DNA of 36,953 bases. Source: a virus. A model generated the notes under the pieces. It was not told the origin of the DNA. It did no database searches and worked only from the letters and a program-made list of their open reading frames with translations. The stretch lies in IMG/VR virus record IMGVR_UViG_3300001686_000002, positions 1 to 36,953 of that record; one strand, 5' to 3'. Every line of letters starts with the position of its first letter. The stretch's first letter is position 1. Of this stretch, positions 3,848 to 36,953 are shown in pieces. Made by a program: the position numbers and the translations under genes.

Positions 3848-4627
3848 TCAACTCACTGCATTCACATTCTGTGCCGATTCCTTCTGTGCCTTTTCAATGG
3901 CTTCATAATGAGCGCGAACAATCTTAATCATCCGGTACAAGATCGCTGAAATATTTCGGATGTTCTCGGATTTCGATACCTTCTTAGCGGCTTTCTTGAA
4001 CTTATCGAATGCCGCGAGCTCCGAAACTAGAACGTTGTCACCTGTCTGGTCTTTGTCCATCAGGTCAAGCACCGTCTCGAACTCGGCTTTTTGATTCGGA
4101 AAGAAACAGATATTCAACATTTCAAAATCCATCGAAATAGAAAGGTCTTCAGTCTTAACTTGCCCGACACTGTAGTTCAGTTCATCCTGCGTTATGGCGG
4201 ATTCAATCTTCGACCGGATGTCGTCAATGCTGTCGTAAATCTCTTTCAACTTCGCTGAATCATCGGTTCCGTTAATCGCGTTGTGAGCTAACTGTTTTGC
4301 TTTCACGGAATTCGAATCAAGTGTTGATTCAAAAACCAGAACGAAAATGATCATCACACTCGCAGCTCGTGCCGCCCGAGTTCTGTGATGCCCAGAAATA
4401 ATTCCGAGCTGGCGATTGCCAGATTTATTCGTCTCCCAGGTACACAGAGGTAAACTCTCTAGGCGTTTGTCGTTCTTAATGTTGTTCACGAGAGACGTGA
4501 ACTTCGTATCGGACATTACCCTGGCATTGACGTCTTGCTCTCGGAGCACGTCAAGATGCACTTTCCAGAGTGACAACCCATTCTCCATGTCGTAAACTTT
4601 TTCAGCGTTGGTCGAGTTCTCATGCAT
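3848..4627 (-). CDS. ParB/Srx-fold protein, likely partner of the modification-like gene
   Basis: The 259-aa protein has the N-terminal ParB-like fold: a strand plus DVNARVMSD (residues 32-40), a helix SLVNNIKND, and the box-II motif ISGHHRTRAARAA (77-89), where the GxxR signature binds nucleotide or phosphate. The rest (about 110-259) is helical and lacks a recognisable ParB helix-turn-helix. There is no parA or parS-like array nearby, so classic partition is unlikely. ATG 4627 overlaps the stop of the upstream gene by 8 nt and has AGGGGAAG ahead of it. ParB-fold proteins occur in phage DNA-modification operons as nucleotide-using enzymes, which fits its coupling to the upstream gene. That role is inference. 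Confidence 0.72.
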   Translation of the reverse strand: MHENSTNAEKVYDMENGLSLWKVHLDVLREQDVNARVMSDTKFTSLVNNIKNDKRLESLPLCTWETNKSGNRQLGIISGHHRTRAARAASVMIIFVLVFESTLDSNSVKAKQLAHNAINGTDDSAKLKEIYDSIDDIRSKIESAITQDELNYSVGQVKTEDLSISMDFEMLNICFFPNQKAEFETVLDLMDKDQTGDNVLVSELAAFDKFKKAAKKVSKSENIRNISAILYRMIKIVRAHYEAIEKAQKESAQNVNAVS

Positions 4628-6044
4628 CTTCGTCTTCCCCTTCTTCATCGTCCTGGTTTTTTCTCAAGTCCTGGACATTGAACTCTTTTAGCCACAGGTC
4701 CAGCGTTTCCTTAAATGATCTTCTGTAAAAGTTTGTCCTGTACAAAAGCTTGTACATACCATTTGGTAACTTTTCTCGATTCTCAATCGTCAGCAGTCCA
4801 GTGTTCGATTTGAGTTTTCTGTATTTTGTCAGTCCAGTTGTTTTGATTCCTTTGATGTCGTAAATCCTGTTGATCTTCACTCGCTTTTCAACGAGACGCT
4901 TAAAGTCGTAACAGGTTAGTAGCATCATGAATAATTTGTGAACATTCGGGTGCTTGTCCAGAGGCTGATCAAATCCAAACACCTGAATGATGTCCGTGGA
5001 CTTCAATCGCAGTACGTCTGACAAAAATATCCCCGTGACACCAAAAGCCATCCCATCCAGCATAAAGAGGTAATAGATCTCTGCCTTGGTCGTCCCCATC
5101 TTGTGCGCCCAGAGATCGCGGTAATACAGAGCGTTCTCCGCTCGAATCATCGAAACGGTGATTTTCGTGTCCTGCGTGATTTCATAGCTCTTTGGCAAAA
5201 TCTCGATACCTAAACTCTTGACGTCTTTTCTCGACTTATACTGAATCTTGTAGGCGAGTGGGTGCTTTTCAAATAGTCGGGGATCAGTAACGCAGTAATA
5301 CTCAAACTTGCTTTTACCTGTCTCTTCGGCAAAAATGATATTCTTTGCAGAGATGGCCGGCCTTCTGTCACACGACCAGATCCATAGTTCTTTGTCCTTG
5401 AATTCTGTCGCGGTAAACCCATCGCTAAACTCTTTCGCTGAGTTGTATGATTCGTAATTGCTCTCGAAAATAATCTCGCCCATGTCTGAACTCTTACCCT
5501 TCGCTGGCGGGTGGACTACGGTTACTGTGCCAGGGCTGTCGCTGGCGATACACACTCTCAGGTCCTTGATCGAATAGTGAATGCCTCTGTACTTCTCCAC
5601 CTTGATTTTCAATTGCTTCACTATGTCTGCGATGATCTCTTCTTTGCTCTTCGTGAGATACTCGTAAACGAGCGCCTCATAGAACAGATCATGGTTGATG
5701 TCCAATCCCCGCATCAGCCAGATCAGGAACGCCACCTTCTCAAACTGTGTCTTATACTGGTCGTATTCCTTCTGCCAATCATAGGTCAGTCGGAAACCGA
5801 TCTCGTCTACGTTCTGATTTTGAATCAAGGCACCGAGCAAGGAACTCATCAGGCTTATGTCAGAAGTAAAGATGTCTCCTGGCTTGTAACCGGCCTCTAG
5901 AGCGACGTCAACAAGGGCAAAGGTGCCGACGCAAGGGATATGGATTTTTGGGTATTTTTCTCGGATTTCTTTAAGAAGTGAGACGTACAGTTTTTTCTGT
6001 GTGGATCTTGAGGCACCAATAAACACAGATTCGGATTTTTTCAT
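4620..6044 (-). CDS. Large two-part protein: degenerate methylase-like N-terminus and Mom/GNAT-like C-terminus
   Basis: The 474-aa protein begins MKKSESVFIGASRSTQ. Residues 32-75 (HIPCVGTFALVDVALEAGY, then FTSDISLMSSLLG) look like the SAM-binding start of D12-class adenine methylases. The usual DPPY motif is absent; VVHPPAKG (176-183) is the nearest match. The C-terminal half (about 290-460: AEIYYLFMLDGMAFGV, then GIKTTGLTKYRKLKSN and MYKLLYRTNFYRRSF) resembles GNAT/Mom-like phage antirestriction acyltransferases. The C-terminus is acidic. No ribosome site is visible; instead a 5-codon frame (6062-6048) ends in TAA directly abutting this ATG. It is coupled to the ParB-like gene. I am fairly sure it is one gene and unsure of its chemistry. 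Confidence 0.55.
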   Translation of the reverse strand: MKKSESVFIGASRSTQKKLYVSLLKEIREKYPKIHIPCVGTFALVDVALEAGYKPGDIFTSDISLMSSLLGALIQNQNVDEIGFRLTYDWQKEYDQYKTQFEKVAFLIWLMRGLDINHDLFYEALVYEYLTKSKEEIIADIVKQLKIKVEKYRGIHYSIKDLRVCIASDSPGTVTVVHPPAKGKSSDMGEIIFESNYESYNSAKEFSDGFTATEFKDKELWIWSCDRRPAISAKNIIFAEETGKSKFEYYCVTDPRLFEKHPLAYKIQYKSRKDVKSLGIEILPKSYEITQDTKITVSMIRAENALYYRDLWAHKMGTTKAEIYYLFMLDGMAFGVTGIFLSDVLRLKSTDIIQVFGFDQPLDKHPNVHKLFMMLLTCYDFKRLVEKRVKINRIYDIKGIKTTGLTKYRKLKSNTGLLTIENREKLPNGMYKLLYRTNFYRRSFKETLDLWLKEFNVQDLRKNQDDEEGEDEDA

Positions 6045-6150: not shown

Positions 6151-6519
6151 CTAGAGAAACGATTCTTGATCGTTACCCCATTCCATCGATGTAACAGAGA
6201 TGCCTTTAAAGCGCAACCAGTCAATTACATAATGGCGGTGACATCTGTCTCCAGGCTTTTCCCAACAGAGCAATATCTTCTCATTTACGATCATCGCAAT
6301 CTCTTCAGGATCAAACCTATCAAGCTGCTGAAAGTAAATGTTTCTCCATTCCTCTGGTTCATAGTCCTTGGCGTTTCGTACCATGTGCCAAGGCGGAGCA
6401 AGGCGAACATCCTTTGCTCCTTCGTAAAATGAGGGAACTCCTTGCGAAATTGCCAAACACTTTTCGAGTGGCAAGTTCTTCAGGTTTCCGTAGTAACTCG
6501 TATAAATCATGATGCTCAT
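6151..6519 (-). CDS. DUF488-like protein
   Basis: The 122-aa protein starts MSIMIYTSYYGNLK, with an AAGAAGAGAAGAAG purine run as ribosome site. The C-terminal block LLCWEKPGDRCHRHYVIDWL is the hallmark of DUF488: L.C.E.....CHR...a..L, with Cys and His residues thought to form an active or metal site. DUF488 proteins are common in phages and bacteria and their biochemical role is not settled. It belongs to the early small-gene operon, upstream of a tRNA-like element. Confidence 0.8.
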   Translation of the reverse strand: MSIMIYTSYYGNLKNLPLEKCLAISQGVPSFYEGAKDVRLAPPWHMVRNAKDYEPEEWRNIYFQQLDRFDPEEIAMIVNEKILLCWEKPGDRCHRHYVIDWLRFKGISVTSMEWGNDQESFL

Positions 6520-29251: not shown

Positions 29252-30767
29252 GTGATTCTCCTTTGATTTTCTGTCTCCTTGCCTCAGCAAGTCGGATCCT
29301 CTCGGCAAACAAACTCGTCGAAGTTTGGCCTGGACCATTTGCTGGTATGTCCACGCCCTTGGCCTGAACGAAACGTCTGCCAACTTCGGATTTAATAGGC
29401 AACTTATATCGTTTTCTAATGCTGTCTTCCAATGGATCATCTGGAACAACTACCTGTGCATCGACAAAGTACTTCATCACCTCAGCAAATTCTTTACCTG
29501 CCTTGTCACTCACTCCTGAATGAGCAAGTTTTGGATACGCATCTCGTGGCCCACGGTTCATTTGAATGAGGCGAGGGATCACCATGCGATTGAATTTTGA
29601 CTCTATTTCATTCGCGATGTGCTCAATCCCCGAGACAAAAAACTCTTGGAAAGTACTGCTCATTGCGAAACTCCCGACAGAATTCATTCCGAGTTCTAAG
29701 AAGTTCGCGAGGAACGCTTTCACCATTCTTTTATCTTCAGAATCGATCGAAGTTTCTACCTTTGATGGATCATAAGAATTATTATTTAAACTAATCTTCC
29801 ACCCTGCTGGGAACGTCAAATAGGCGGATTGATGAGTAGTGTAATCTTGCAAGGAATCTATCAGATTTTTGTACTGATCGCTGTTCTCTTTGCCAGCTGG
29901 GATTTCAGCCATCGGCGTCGGGATCGCGTACTTCTCGATGCCCATCGCGTTCAATTTCATGTACGTGTCTTTTCTCAACCAACATCCGTAACAGGATCGC
30001 AAGGCAGAAACACCCTCATAGTTCGAACCCTCCTGGTCGAGACTGAACAGAATCAAGAATTCTGCGGGGATATCTACTGTTTTGTACAAGTCTCCAAAAC
30101 TATACTGAGTGACCGATGCAAGTCTTCCCGTTGCGTAGTCAAGGTTAAATCTTTCGATAGTCCTTTGACTGCGGAAACCGAGCGACTGAATGGCGTTGTA
30201 TGTTCCAAATTTTGGATGGTCGAATACTACCTTGTCAGTGATTTCGAAAGCACTGAACCCGAAATCAATGAACGTCAGGATCTCCCCGAGTTGCTGCGTC
30301 CAGTCCATATCGAGATCATGGAATAGGATCTGCTCGATTAACTCAGCGTCAAGTTTCGCATCCTCAGAATCATCTGCGGGTTGAACCTCCCACGTCGCAC
30401 TCTTGATCGGATTTTTCACGGCCTTCAGACACATCTTAATCTGGTAGTCAGATCGTCTCATCTCATCGTAAAGGTCTGCTCGTTTTCTCGGAGAACGTAA
30501 CTCCGACAAATACTCTTCAGCAGGATAACCGTAGTACGAAATGCTGCCATAAGAACCGATTGAACTCGTGTGAGGATTGCCTCTGCTTGTTCTCGTGGAT
30601 GGGATAATTCCGCTCAAAGGCGACTGTCCTGGTATCGGTGCTGTCACCTGCGTCGGTGTCGCAGAAGGATTAGGGATTTGCAGCGGAGGTAACGATACCT
30701 GCCTGTTTTCAAACTGACCTAATAGAATTCTACTAGCGATCCTCAACAACGGATTTTTCGTTACCAT
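29229..30767 (-). CDS. Portal protein, Mu gp29-like (DUF935)
   Basis: The 512-aa protein has a Pro-rich N-terminus. Its core YDEMRRSDYQIKMCLKAVKN, SATWEVQPADDSEDAK and LTFIDFGFSAFEIT fits the DUF935 portal family (PF06074). The length fits Mu gp29 (about 512 aa). The start overlaps the TerL stop by 7 bases. It should form the dodecameric DNA port at one capsid vertex. Confidence 0.85.
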   Translation of the reverse strand: MVTKNPLLRIASRILLGQFENRQVSLPPLQIPNPSATPTQVTAPIPGQSPLSGIIPSTRTSRGNPHTSSIGSYGSISYYGYPAEEYLSELRSPRKRADLYDEMRRSDYQIKMCLKAVKNPIKSATWEVQPADDSEDAKLDAELIEQILFHDLDMDWTQQLGEILTFIDFGFSAFEITDKVVFDHPKFGTYNAIQSLGFRSQRTIERFNLDYATGRLASVTQYSFGDLYKTVDIPAEFLILFSLDQEGSNYEGVSALRSCYGCWLRKDTYMKLNAMGIEKYAIPTPMAEIPAGKENSDQYKNLIDSLQDYTTHQSAYLTFPAGWKISLNNNSYDPSKVETSIDSEDKRMVKAFLANFLELGMNSVGSFAMSSTFQEFFVSGIEHIANEIESKFNRMVIPRLIQMNRGPRDAYPKLAHSGVSDKAGKEFAEVMKYFVDAQVVVPDDPLEDSIRKRYKLPIKSEVGRRFVQAKGVDIPANGPGQTSTSLFAERIRLAEARRQKIKGESHGGLETG

Positions 30768-32347
30768 GCCTTTGTATTTCTCCTGTACGGAACGTTCGTG
30801 GAGGATGGTCTCTTTGCCATTCTACTCGTAAATTCACCCACGTTAAAGGCATCGTATCGCGCATAGTTCGCAAGTGCCAGAGAATCACTGCTGTCTGGAC
30901 TAGATCTCCCAGTTCTCGCTTTGTACTCGTCTTTCGATTCGATCAACCATCGTCCTTGTTTATCAAACCTGTATTGTATAGTCGGCATTTCCTCAAGATA
31001 AATGTCCTCATTCATCAGGGCGAGATCGGATTTCAAATCATTCGAGAGTTCAATAAAGATTCTAGACTTGAGGTTGACATATTTCTGAGCTTCAGCATCA
31101 TCTTTCTCTCCAGCAGCAGCTCCGAAATGGACCTCTCTTACCTCAATATACCGGGGAAAATCGTTCGTATCTTGTAATGAACGAAGTTGGTCAACTACTC
31201 CACCTCCCACCCCTGTCGCATCAACGGCAATGTGGACATCCTTTGACTTTTCATCCTTAAGAATTCGAACAACCTCTCCGGTCGTCTCCGTTGTATCTCT
31301 GCGCGAGAACGTTTTTTTGAGCGTTTGTTGCTCACCATGAAATCGCGTGATCACTGTTTTGTCAGTACCGAAGCGAGCGACATCAACTCCGATCGACACT
31401 CGAGAATTTTCATCGTAGGTTTCCGTTCGGTAAATAGCCTTCTGCACCATCGACATAGGAAAGAGTGTGTATTCTCCCTCTTCAGGGAACTCTCCCAAGG
31501 CTTTCGAGAGCACCAAGGGATGATCTAGGCCAAGGCGAAGGGCCATTCTCATTACCCATCGAACAGTCAAAAGATTCAGGTCAACTACTGTGAACGCACC
31601 GAGTGCGACTTCTTGATCGGCTTGACTGAGATTTTGAATGTGCTCGAGCTCGGATCTCAAATGCTCTTTCGTTCTCAACCCATTTGCCGCGAAGTTCGGG
31701 CTGTCGAAGCAATTCAAATAAATCTTGTGGTACGAGGGATCAGAGAAACATTTATAGAACTCGCAGTCTCTTGTCGTCGGGTTTCCGATGCCCAAAAATC
31801 GTACGCGAGCAGAAGTCATCAACCCTTCCATCTGCACCCAGATGGGTTTCTGAATGCCTGTCGCCTCATCGAAAATCACGAGGATATAGTCACCATGAAA
31901 GCCTTGGAACGAACTTGCCGAACCTTGCTCTTCACCTGATCCGCTGCCGGGACTGGCGGTGTAACCAATCGCAAACCAATCATCAGCGATCCTCCATCCA
32001 GTTTGCATCATCGTACCGCCCAATGGATACTTAGCTTTTTCATACCCTTTTCTAATCTCAGACCAAAGGAGCATCTTGACTTGCTTGAAAGTCGGTGCGG
32101 TCGTGATCACCTTTGCTCCAGGGAATGAGGACGTGAACCAGAGTACTATTTTAGCTGCTGTCCAGGTTTTTCCTAGGTCGTGAGCGGAGGCAACAACAGT
32201 CCGTTCATGTTTTGCTACTGATTCTGCTACCTTCTGCTGAAATGGTAGCATTGTCGATACGCCTTGGACCATTTTGATATGGTATAGAGCATCTTTTCTG
32301 CATTTTTCTGCAAGGCTATATTCGGTTAAGTTTTGCGTGTTCTCCAA
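30761..32347 (-). CDS. terL: Terminase large subunit
   Basis: The 528-aa protein has a Walker A-like VVASAHDLGKTWTAAK (residues 51-66), Walker B ILVIFDEAT (155-163) and a nuclease core with IGVDVARFGTDKT (Asp 321 and Asp 328) and HIAVDATGVGGG (Asp 375). A later SSPDSSDSLALA could supply another acidic residue. It packages DNA using ATP and cuts concatemers. The start overlaps the HNH gene by 32 bases. The packaging mode (headful or cos) is not readable from sequence alone. Confidence 0.92.
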   Translation of the reverse strand: MENTQNLTEYSLAEKCRKDALYHIKMVQGVSTMLPFQQKVAESVAKHERTVVASAHDLGKTWTAAKIVLWFTSSFPGAKVITTAPTFKQVKMLLWSEIRKGYEKAKYPLGGTMMQTGWRIADDWFAIGYTASPGSGSGEEQGSASSFQGFHGDYILVIFDEATGIQKPIWVQMEGLMTSARVRFLGIGNPTTRDCEFYKCFSDPSYHKIYLNCFDSPNFAANGLRTKEHLRSELEHIQNLSQADQEVALGAFTVVDLNLLTVRWVMRMALRLGLDHPLVLSKALGEFPEEGEYTLFPMSMVQKAIYRTETYDENSRVSIGVDVARFGTDKTVITRFHGEQQTLKKTFSRRDTTETTGEVVRILKDEKSKDVHIAVDATGVGGGVVDQLRSLQDTNDFPRYIEVREVHFGAAAGEKDDAEAQKYVNLKSRIFIELSNDLKSDLALMNEDIYLEEMPTIQYRFDKQGRWLIESKDEYKARTGRSSPDSSDSLALANYARYDAFNVGEFTSRMAKRPSSTNVPYRRNTKAW

Positions 32348-32792
32348 AATATTCCCTAGCAGCGTTATTATAGGCTACAGCTGCGTCAACTTCTTTTTCG
32401 AAAAACCCTAGATGGATCTGTTTTCTTTTTACAGCAATGTATGCTCGCCATTTTTTTGTGTTGGCGTGTTTTGATACGCCCTTGAATTTCGACCTTCCTT
32501 TTTTTGCTCTGGAGTTATAGCAGTTCTGCGTTTGAGTGCAGATTCTAAGGTTTTCTTTTCTGTTGTCGAGCGAATTTCCGTTCACGTGGTCAACAACGTA
32601 TCCTTCAGGGGGGCTTGCAATCACATTGTGCATTCGAACCAAGGTAGGGTTTTTTCTACCTCCACCAGAGTAGCTGACCGCATAGAATTTTTTCCCATTT
32701 GATTCCTTAGCACACCACTTGTACTTGGATATTTTTTTAAAATCCTCATCGTCAATTACAGCTACAAGTCGTTGAGTGAGAGGTATTTCCAT
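32316..32792 (-). CDS. HNH homing endonuclease with AP2-like DNA-binding domain
   Basis: The 158-aa protein has the HNH motif at MHNVI, VVDHVNGNSLDNRKENL (residues 54-83), then an AP2-like domain (FKGVSKHANTKKWRAYI, LGFFEKEVDAAVAYNNAA). This is the standard mobile HNH-AP2 nuclease of phages. It lies between TerS and TerL, a favourite insertion point, and overlaps TerL by 32 bases, so it is free-standing rather than in an intron. Confidence 0.92.
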   Translation of the reverse strand: MEIPLTQRLVAVIDDEDFKKISKYKWCAKESNGKKFYAVSYSGGGRKNPTLVRMHNVIASPPEGYVVDHVNGNSLDNRKENLRICTQTQNCYNSRAKKGRSKFKGVSKHANTKKWRAYIAVKRKQIHLGFFEKEVDAAVAYNNAAREYFGEHAKLNRI

Positions 32793-36578: not shown

Positions 36579-36953
36579 TCATGATCTCTTTCGAGGTGGT
36601 ATATAAATGAGGTTATCCTCAATTTTGCACCCAGAATGAAACCCAATATCATTCAATTTTTTGAGAGACTTCTTGAGGTCTTGCTTCATTTTATAGTTGG
36701 GGATCTTATCACCGATGGCAAAATGGCTTCTGAGTTCTTCGAATCTAAACACCACTGTGTCTTTCGCTCTGTCTTGTCGGTCAACCAGATATACGTAAAG
36801 GTCCATCGCGGCATAGTCTCTTCCGAGTTTTTCGATGATCTCAAGATCAACCTTGACATACAGCATATCAAAAAAATGCTGGCTGACGCGAATGAATGAA
36901 CGCCCATTTGCATCCGAGCGATCATTCACAAATCCGTTGATCTTACTGATAAT
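36579..36953 (-). CDS. rep: RepA-like replication initiator, C-terminal part
   Basis: This is the 3' part of the initiator gene; bases 36872-36953 duplicate 1-82. The motif AAMDLYVYLVDRQ, then FRFEELRSHFAIGD and a Lys-rich helix (YKMKQDLKKSLKKL) fit the second winged-helix half of RepA_C proteins, where lDlY.WL, W..L...FG and nFK...L are the usual landmarks. The stop is 5 bases from a consensus DnaA box and under 30 bases from the last iteron, which is the usual rep-oriV arrangement. A start at the in-frame GTG 36929 would give only a fragment; it arises because the linear window cuts the gene. Confidence 0.85.
   Translation of the reverse strand: MISKINGFVNDRSDANGRSFIRVSQHFFDMLYVKVDLEIIEKLGRDYAAMDLYVYLVDRQDRAKDTVVFRFEELRSHFAIGDKIPNYKMKQDLKKSLKKLNDIGFHSGCKIEDNLIYIPPRKRS
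36872..36953. repeat. Terminal overlap, right copy (circular join)
   Basis: This is the second copy of the 82-base end overlap. The size is compatible with an assembler's k-mer overlap on a circular contig, but the sequence alone cannot exclude a short genuine direct terminal repeat. Confidence 0.95.

Follow-up and report, generated by a model that had tools for sequence, protein, structure and literature searches.

A possible DNA base-(hyper)modification module of phages combining DUF488, DAM-like/GNAT and ParB-fold proteins

What is the role of a ParB-fold protein whose gene overlaps, in a phage genome, that of a methylase-like protein ending in an acetyltransferase-like domain? This question is raised by a locus on the minus strand of the IMG/VR virus record IMGVR_UViG_3300001686_000002, the whole of which (36,953 nucleotides) is referred to below as the window. 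A first-pass annotation, made from the sequence alone, had proposed that the two genes form a DNA-modification pair. The folds, co-occurrence and co-evolution of the two proteins support this proposal, but it was incomplete: a third gene, encoding a DUF488-family protein, had been missed, and a sister form exists in which an amidoligase is fused to the DAM-like/GNAT part. What was computed directly comprises the folds, the grouping of the three genes and their joint inheritance, the clamp-like DUF488 tails and, in most relatives, the position before the terminase gene. That DUF488, DAM-like/GNAT and ParB constitute a phage module for DNA base-(hyper)modification is a reading for and against which we judge the chances to be about even.

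As shown in Table 1, both reading frames of the original pair (474 and 266 aa) lie on the minus strand exactly where they had been placed. In the larger protein, residues 8–180 match the Pfam domain DAM-like-phage1 (PF22555; E 1.9e-20), and PHROG 7858 (phrog_7858, of unknown function) spans nearly the entire sequence (E 5.4e-36). Both PF22555 and the GNAT-phage-like domain PF22559 are matched by 38 of 38 aligned relatives. The window protein is a two-domain member of these families, the Pfam names of which show that the DAM-like and GNAT domains have already been noticed by others; the PF22555, PF22559 and PHROG 7858 entries are names without tested function and record no ParB or DUF488 partners. 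A sequence search of the Protein Data Bank (PDB) with the DAM-GNAT profile yielded chance matches only, NCBIfam provided no useful name, and P0001 used alone as a query retrieved no relative from IMG/VR.

Table 1. Coordinates of the three genes, their motifs and the genome ends in the window
Feature	Position	Strand	Basis
DAM-like/GNAT two-domain protein, 474 aa	4620–6044	−	PF22555, PF22559, phrog_7858, structural model
GNAT-like domain, residues 292–453	4686–5171	−	GNAT-phage-like PF22559 (E 1.8e-15); GNAT-fold matches, including Mom (8bv8)
Motif IV equivalent HPPA, residues 178–181, replacing DPPY	5502–5513	−	Alignment
ParB-fold protein, 266 aa (start at 4648 or 4627)	3848–4648	−	phrog_7405 (E 2.8e-53), ParB-like PHROGs
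P-motif (Box II) SGHHR, residues 85–89	4382–4396	−	Alignment of 48 relatives
DUF488-family protein, 122 aa	6151–6519	−	Cluster HMM (E 1.6e-30), phrog_2450 (E 5.7e-18)
DUF488 signature C-x-E...CHR, residues 85–95	6235–6267	−	Alignment
C-terminal QESFL, weak form of clamp-binding-like Q-x-x-L-F	6154–6168	−	Tail comparison
Perfect terminal repeat, 82 bases	1–82 (left copy), 36872–36953 (right copy)	.	Sequence identity

In the AlphaFold2 model of the DAM-GNAT protein (38 sequences; pLDDT 86.3, pTM 0.70), residues 5–255 superimpose on Escherichia coli Dam (Z 12.8, 201 residues, rmsd 4.4, 13% identity), and Dam structures rank top in the fold comparison of the N-terminal domain. The Dam/D12 methyltransferases E. 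coli Dam, T4 Dam and DpnM are alike in fold (Z 11 to 12.8, 12–15% identity) and have the motif I glycine and the motif II aspartate in common with the DAM-like domain; in an alignment of 115 sequences, these residues (G40 and D62) are kept in 103/103 and 104/104 of the sequences with a letter at the respective place. In contrast, the second motif I glycine and the DPPY of Dam/D12 are replaced in the DAM-like/GNAT family. The motif I consensus for S-adenosylmethionine (SAM) binding is G-x-G, whereas the second residue after this motif's first glycine is F, L, M or Y in 103/103 sequences (F in the window) and never by G. At motif IV, NPPT is found in 74 of the 115 alignment rows, DPPY in one (locus L120) and HPPA in the window and in L006; the first place is N or D in 92/109 and the fourth is T in 86/109. 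The degenerate SAM-methylase-like start without DPPY, as described in the earlier annotation, is apparent from both fold and motifs. The alignment shows alteration of the Dam part throughout the family, with additional erosion in the window copy. The locus with an intact DPPY (L120:8651-9997) has the gene order ParB, DAM-GNAT, then DUF488 on the opposite strand, and L114:5725-7995 carries, at the motif IV loop, an in-frame insertion that matches LAGLIDADG and has intein-like ends.

Residues 290–441 of the same model adopt a GNAT fold, for which an IAA acetyltransferase (Z 9.8) and phage Mu Mom (8bv8; Z 9.7, 141 residues, rmsd 3.5) are tied as closest structures. On the GNAT side, residues Y308, R309, H314, D330, T402, G416 and Y435 are each kept in at least 102 of the 115 sequences.

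The smaller gene overlaps the DAM-GNAT gene by 8 bases, as had been claimed, when its start is placed at ATG 4627, the candidate with the better ribosome site (AAGGGG type), and by 29 bases when ATG 4648 is used; across other loci, overlaps were counted from the first ATG and are maximum values. The model of the encoded protein (pLDDT 85.1) matches Caulobacter ParB 7bm8 (Z 12.4, 98 residues, rmsd 2.0), and the family profile matches a solved ParB family protein (E 3.9e-6). The nucleotide-binding ParB motif noted at first pass corresponds to the SGxHR box (P-motif, GxxR type), in which S85, G86, H88 and R89 are invariant in 48 aligned relatives. Structure prediction of the two proteins, which had been suggested as a check, thus returned both the GNAT and the ParB fold. 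No strong fold match was obtained for the C-terminal half of the ParB protein, which, according to the note of the tool used, shows nothing. According to excerpts of PMC12704722 (the PMC articles cited here are all represented by excerpts), binding of CTP, ATP or GTP by the ParB-CTPase fold depends on the P-motif arginine, and the nucleotide is not yet predictable from sequence.

Clustering of neighbouring genes revealed that a small gene conserved upstream in 47 loci is a DUF488 relative. In the window this gene is located 106 bases upstream of the DAM-GNAT gene, and its product matches the hidden Markov model (HMM) of the upstream-gene cluster derived from other loci (Table 1). The Pfam domain DUF488-N3a is matched by 19 of 21 aligned members (best E 4e-10), with the window protein below the cut-off (E 0.011); the DUF488 protein of L315 is above it (E 7e-16). 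Residues C85, C93, H94 and R95 of the DUF488 signature are invariant in 21 sequences. A PDB sequence search with the DUF488 profile gave chance matches only. The C-terminal tails carry Q-x-x-L/M/I/F-F/W/L/M in 36 of 46 unique cases, compared with an average of 2.2 in 500 shuffles, and a clamp-like tail was found in 54 of 76 unique DUF488 tails in a larger set. None of the control tails ended in this way (0/88 DAM-GNAT, 0/85 ParB, 0/36 TerS and 0/36 TerL). We take the motif to be the known type of pentapeptide that binds the bacterial sliding clamp.

The linkage of these genes was examined from each side, using queries whose loci share contigs, so that the counts are not additive. With ParB as the only query, 80 viral loci were retrieved, 77 of them with a DAM-GNAT match; the other three (L007, L013, L070) begin at the contig edge. 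Among prokaryote genomes, the same query gave 35 loci, 34 with DAM-GNAT. The reverse query from DAM-GNAT gave 67 loci with ParB in 63, the remaining four being cut off within the gene or shortly behind it. Where at least 2 kb of upstream sequence was available, DUF488 was present in 50/52 viral, 30/31 genome and 3/3 phage DAM-GNAT loci, as counted with an HMM built on some of these loci. Finally, 80 loci retrieved from DUF488 contained a DAM-GNAT-type match in 68 cases (some of them amidoligase-fused) and ParB in 74. In 80 control loci selected for a short phage SAM synthetase, DAM-GNAT and DUF488 were both absent (0 each) and ParB was found in 27. The pairing of DAM-GNAT with ParB is far beyond chance.

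Mirror-tree analysis of 41 representatives gave a rho of 0.89 between DAM and ParB distances. For 24 representatives with a shared terminase family, the values were 0.92 for DAM-ParB and 0.79 for DAM-DUF488, compared with 0.42 for DAM-TerL and 0.26 for DUF488-TerL. DUF488, DAM-GNAT and ParB co-evolve beyond the phage backbone. The module is carried by phages and by contigs named for Clostridia, actinobacteria, Acidobacteria and others; the named phages include Mycobacterium phage Cepens, Microbacterium phage ValentiniPuff and Faecalibacterium phage FP_Brigit. A contig of Faecalimonas umbilicata DSM 103426 (L086) likewise carries the trio.

Several loci depart from the usual arrangement. The DAM-GNAT match of L057 is a short piece 5.8 kb away and not adjacent, L015 is frame-split, an HNH gene separates DAM-GNAT from ParB in L011, and other genes do so in L078 and L079. 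DUF488 was not found in L015, L019, L105, L256 and L258, although upstream sequence is present, and lies on the opposite strand or at another place in L071, L078, L079, L120 and L006. Apparent deletions fuse the DAM-like part to ParB in L048:5269-6501 and, in L111:7591-8702, link DUF488 to a ParB that has lost the N-terminus.

The DAM-GNAT HMM left 12 of the 80 DUF488 loci unmatched, and eight of these (L315, L317, L320, L325, L326, L327, L332 and L335) encode a protein of about 690 aa. The one chain that was scanned, that of L315, combines Amidoligase_2 (E 6e-19), DAM-like-phage2 (E 1e-106) and GNAT-phage-like (E 1e-42). Near these fusions we found ParB, an ATP-grasp enzyme (L315) and an octopine-dehydrogenase-like enzyme (L326); racemase-like genes were also seen by eye. 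A query with the fusion family returned 80 loci, 52 of which contain full-length fusions: 50 of these have ParB, 49 have DUF488 and 47 have both, while the five without the full set lie within about 1.3 kb of the contig end on the missing side. An ATP-grasp relative is present in 22 of the 52. None of the 28 amidoligase-only loci contains a ParB, DUF488 or ATP-grasp relative. This difference (47/52 versus 0/28) indicates that ParB and DUF488 are associated with the DAM-like/GNAT part and not with the amidoligase. In another locus (L331:5938-8553), DUF488 is followed by an HNH-GNAT-phage-like fusion without DAM, by ParB and then by apparent terminase genes; the fusion represents a further variant of the writer.

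A common ParB/DUF488 core combined with exchangeable, acyl- or amide-forming writers built on a Dam-like scaffold fits base-(hyper)modification better than partition, plain methylation or packaging, and the family member with an intact DPPY (L120) also speaks for this reading. We infer that DNA is the substrate of the module. The Dam-fold domain, with its altered motifs I and IV, would bind DNA and flip a base, most likely adenine as suggested by the Dam fold, without ordinary methylation; the fused GNAT domain would then move an acyl-type group onto the presented base. The ParB-fold partner would bind a nucleotide and load or license the enzyme on DNA, and DUF488, whose C-terminal motif would anchor it to the replication sliding clamp, may act as an accessory or regulatory enzyme on newly made DNA. 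Phage DNA would in this way be marked before packaging, and the added group would perhaps shield it from bacterial enzymes such as those of restriction. A more specific proposal, which we regard as possible but doubtful, is that of an undescribed hypermodification class with a fixed core (a ParB switch and a clamp-tethered DUF488) and an exchangeable degenerate-Dam/unusual-GNAT writer. This writer would act alone, as in the window, or fused to an amidoligase and accompanied by ATP-grasp and opine-dehydrogenase or racemase-like enzymes that attach an amino-acid-derived group to a DNA base.

There are published parallels for such an arrangement. That ParB-fold proteins accompany phage base-modification enzymes, as the first-pass annotation had stated, agrees with reports of ParBc domains with DNA-modifying enzymes (PMC12783734). 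In the excerpts of that article, CmoX and CmoY are experimentally shown phage DNA modifiers with a ParBc companion, and CmoA, CmoX and CmoY perform cytosine carboxymethyl and glycyl hypermodification of phage DNA. The Cmo systems resemble the present module in placing a methylase-fold enzyme beside a ParB-domain protein, and resemble its sister form in the proximity of amide-bond-making ATP-grasp or amidoligase enzymes. They differ in that CmoX is a C5-cytosine enzyme using carboxy-SAM, whereas here a Dam fold is fused to GNAT and DUF488 is added. A second precedent is that genuine Mom genes (PF25680) were seen next to ParB_N genes in two of the eight Mom loci looked at, namely in phages Appa (L122:4469-5621, with an 8-base overlap) and StevieBAY (L124:2181-3561). 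The phage ParB-methyltransferase fusions described in PMC12704722 likewise tie an NTP-binding ParB fold with a GxxR box to methylase or acetyltransferase domains, but as a single chain instead of separate overlapping genes. The excerpts of this article also report an archaeal DUF488-HTH fusion tested alongside the ParB-CTPase fold and do not mention a DAM-like-phage1/GNAT partner.

Several observations weigh against the base-modification reading. An aromatic residue is present at position 182 in 105 of the 110 relatives with a letter there, and at position 186 in every other sequence with a letter; the window has K and S, respectively. Since both motif IV loop aromatics are lost, the window copy may be inactive, less active or changed. 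The acyl-CoA loop is not conserved either: the canonical GNAT consensus is R/Q-x-x-G-x-G/A, while the family has R-L-x-R/K-L and the window N-V-H-K-L. Despite this atypical loop, the domain may work like a GNAT. The terminase gene is not adjacent to the window copy of the module. Furthermore, the Mom part of the claimed GNAT/Mom-like C-terminus did not hold: a direct Mom homologue was rejected (hhalign probability 0.1 against Mu Mom), no Mom (PF25680) match was found in a Pfam scan of the DAM-GNAT protein, and Mu Mom, unlike this protein, is without a Dam-like domain.

An alternative, which we consider unlikely although it survives best, is that the proteins form a DNA-binding pseudo-enzyme complex that marks or licenses packaging, in which a non-catalytic Dam-like domain and a ParB clamp direct terminase to the DNA to be packaged or to the starting point and GNAT is a structural remnant. 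This would agree with the alteration of motifs I and IV in nearly all members and with the presence of a same-strand TerL gene that starts no more than 3 kb downstream in 50/56 viral, 30/31 genome and 2/4 phage loci. The conserved GNAT-side residues, on the other hand, argue for activity, the amidoligase-fused sister form looks enzymatic, and the association with terminase is not universal. In the window, exonuclease and RecT genes lie next to the trio where most relatives have terminase, and the terminase gene is about 8.4 kb downstream around the circle (calculated from the coordinates); no terminase is annotated near the DAM-GNAT copy of Cepens.

Only slightly less probable is that the DAM-GNAT protein is a variant DNA adenine methyltransferase accompanied by ParB, comparable to the common phage ParB-methylases, with GNAT as an accessory and N6-methyladenine as the product. 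The Dam fold, the invariance of G40 and D62, the N or D with which motif IV usually begins and the DPPY of L120 all favour it; the consistently non-glycine second place of motif I and the T that usually ends motif IV do not. In addition, its ParB and DUF488 families are shared with the form that has DAM-like-phage2 and amidoligase and with the HNH-GNAT form without DAM. SAM synthetase genes, full-length or short, are neighbours in 20 searched loci, the full-length ones being common in Streptococcus phages. They would suggest the use of SAM, but they are common elsewhere and decide nothing. SAM synthetase was rejected as a part of the module on account of its spread among phages without it, as seen in the control loci described above. 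The short SAM-synthetase-like proteins (about 270 aa; L056:1400-2197, L083:6716-7531, L102:1106-1924 and L109:5596-6468) match the N-terminal Pfam domain only and have at least 588 relatives in viral contigs.

It is improbable that the module acylates proteins as a host-takeover or counter-defence enzyme regulated by ParB and DUF488. Other phage GNATs or ParB domains have been proposed, in excerpts of PMC5512222 and PMC7824862, to act on proteins or as DNases, and in the fold comparison the C-terminal domain stands no nearer to Mom than to protein acetyltransferases of the RimI/Naa50 type; however, its fusion to a Dam fold, and its inheritance together with a ParB-fold protein and a partner tethered to the clamp, suggest DNA as the target. 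A role of the locus in partition or plasmid maintenance, in the literal sense of the name ParB, is suggested by the ParB/CTPase fold but is very improbable given the conserved DAM-GNAT and DUF488 partners and the usual place beside terminase; parA was not seen among the window reading frames scanned, which were only part of the total, with no systematic search for parA or parS.

A defence-system label was also rejected: PADLOC returned nothing for the pair and only the candidate models PDC-M45 and PDC-M19A for DUF488. No paper describing the trio was identified by title or start of abstract in the CC-licensed PMC literature, with subscription papers and preprints outside the scope of the search. 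The base-modification reading would turn three families of unknown function (PHROGs 7858, 7405 and 2450) into one testable module that is present, among others, in phages with laboratory hosts. It would also give a possible DNA-modification context to the phage amidoligases of PHROG 2443, which are tabulated in excerpts of PMC11318856 as host-metabolism or defence genes. A new base, if found, would mean one more route of modification and offer hints on how restriction is evaded.

The genome that carries the window copy is probably complete, as the identical 82-base ends allow record IMGVR_UViG_3300001686_000002 to close to a circle of 36,871 bases. It contains tailed-phage genes for a Mu-like portal, a terminase large subunit and a major head protein. 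Among phage records, the terminase (30761-32347) is closest to that of a virus assigned to Methanosarcinales (31.9% identity), and an HNH endonuclease (32316-32792; phrog_99, E 1.1e-37) overlaps the start of the TerL reading frame.

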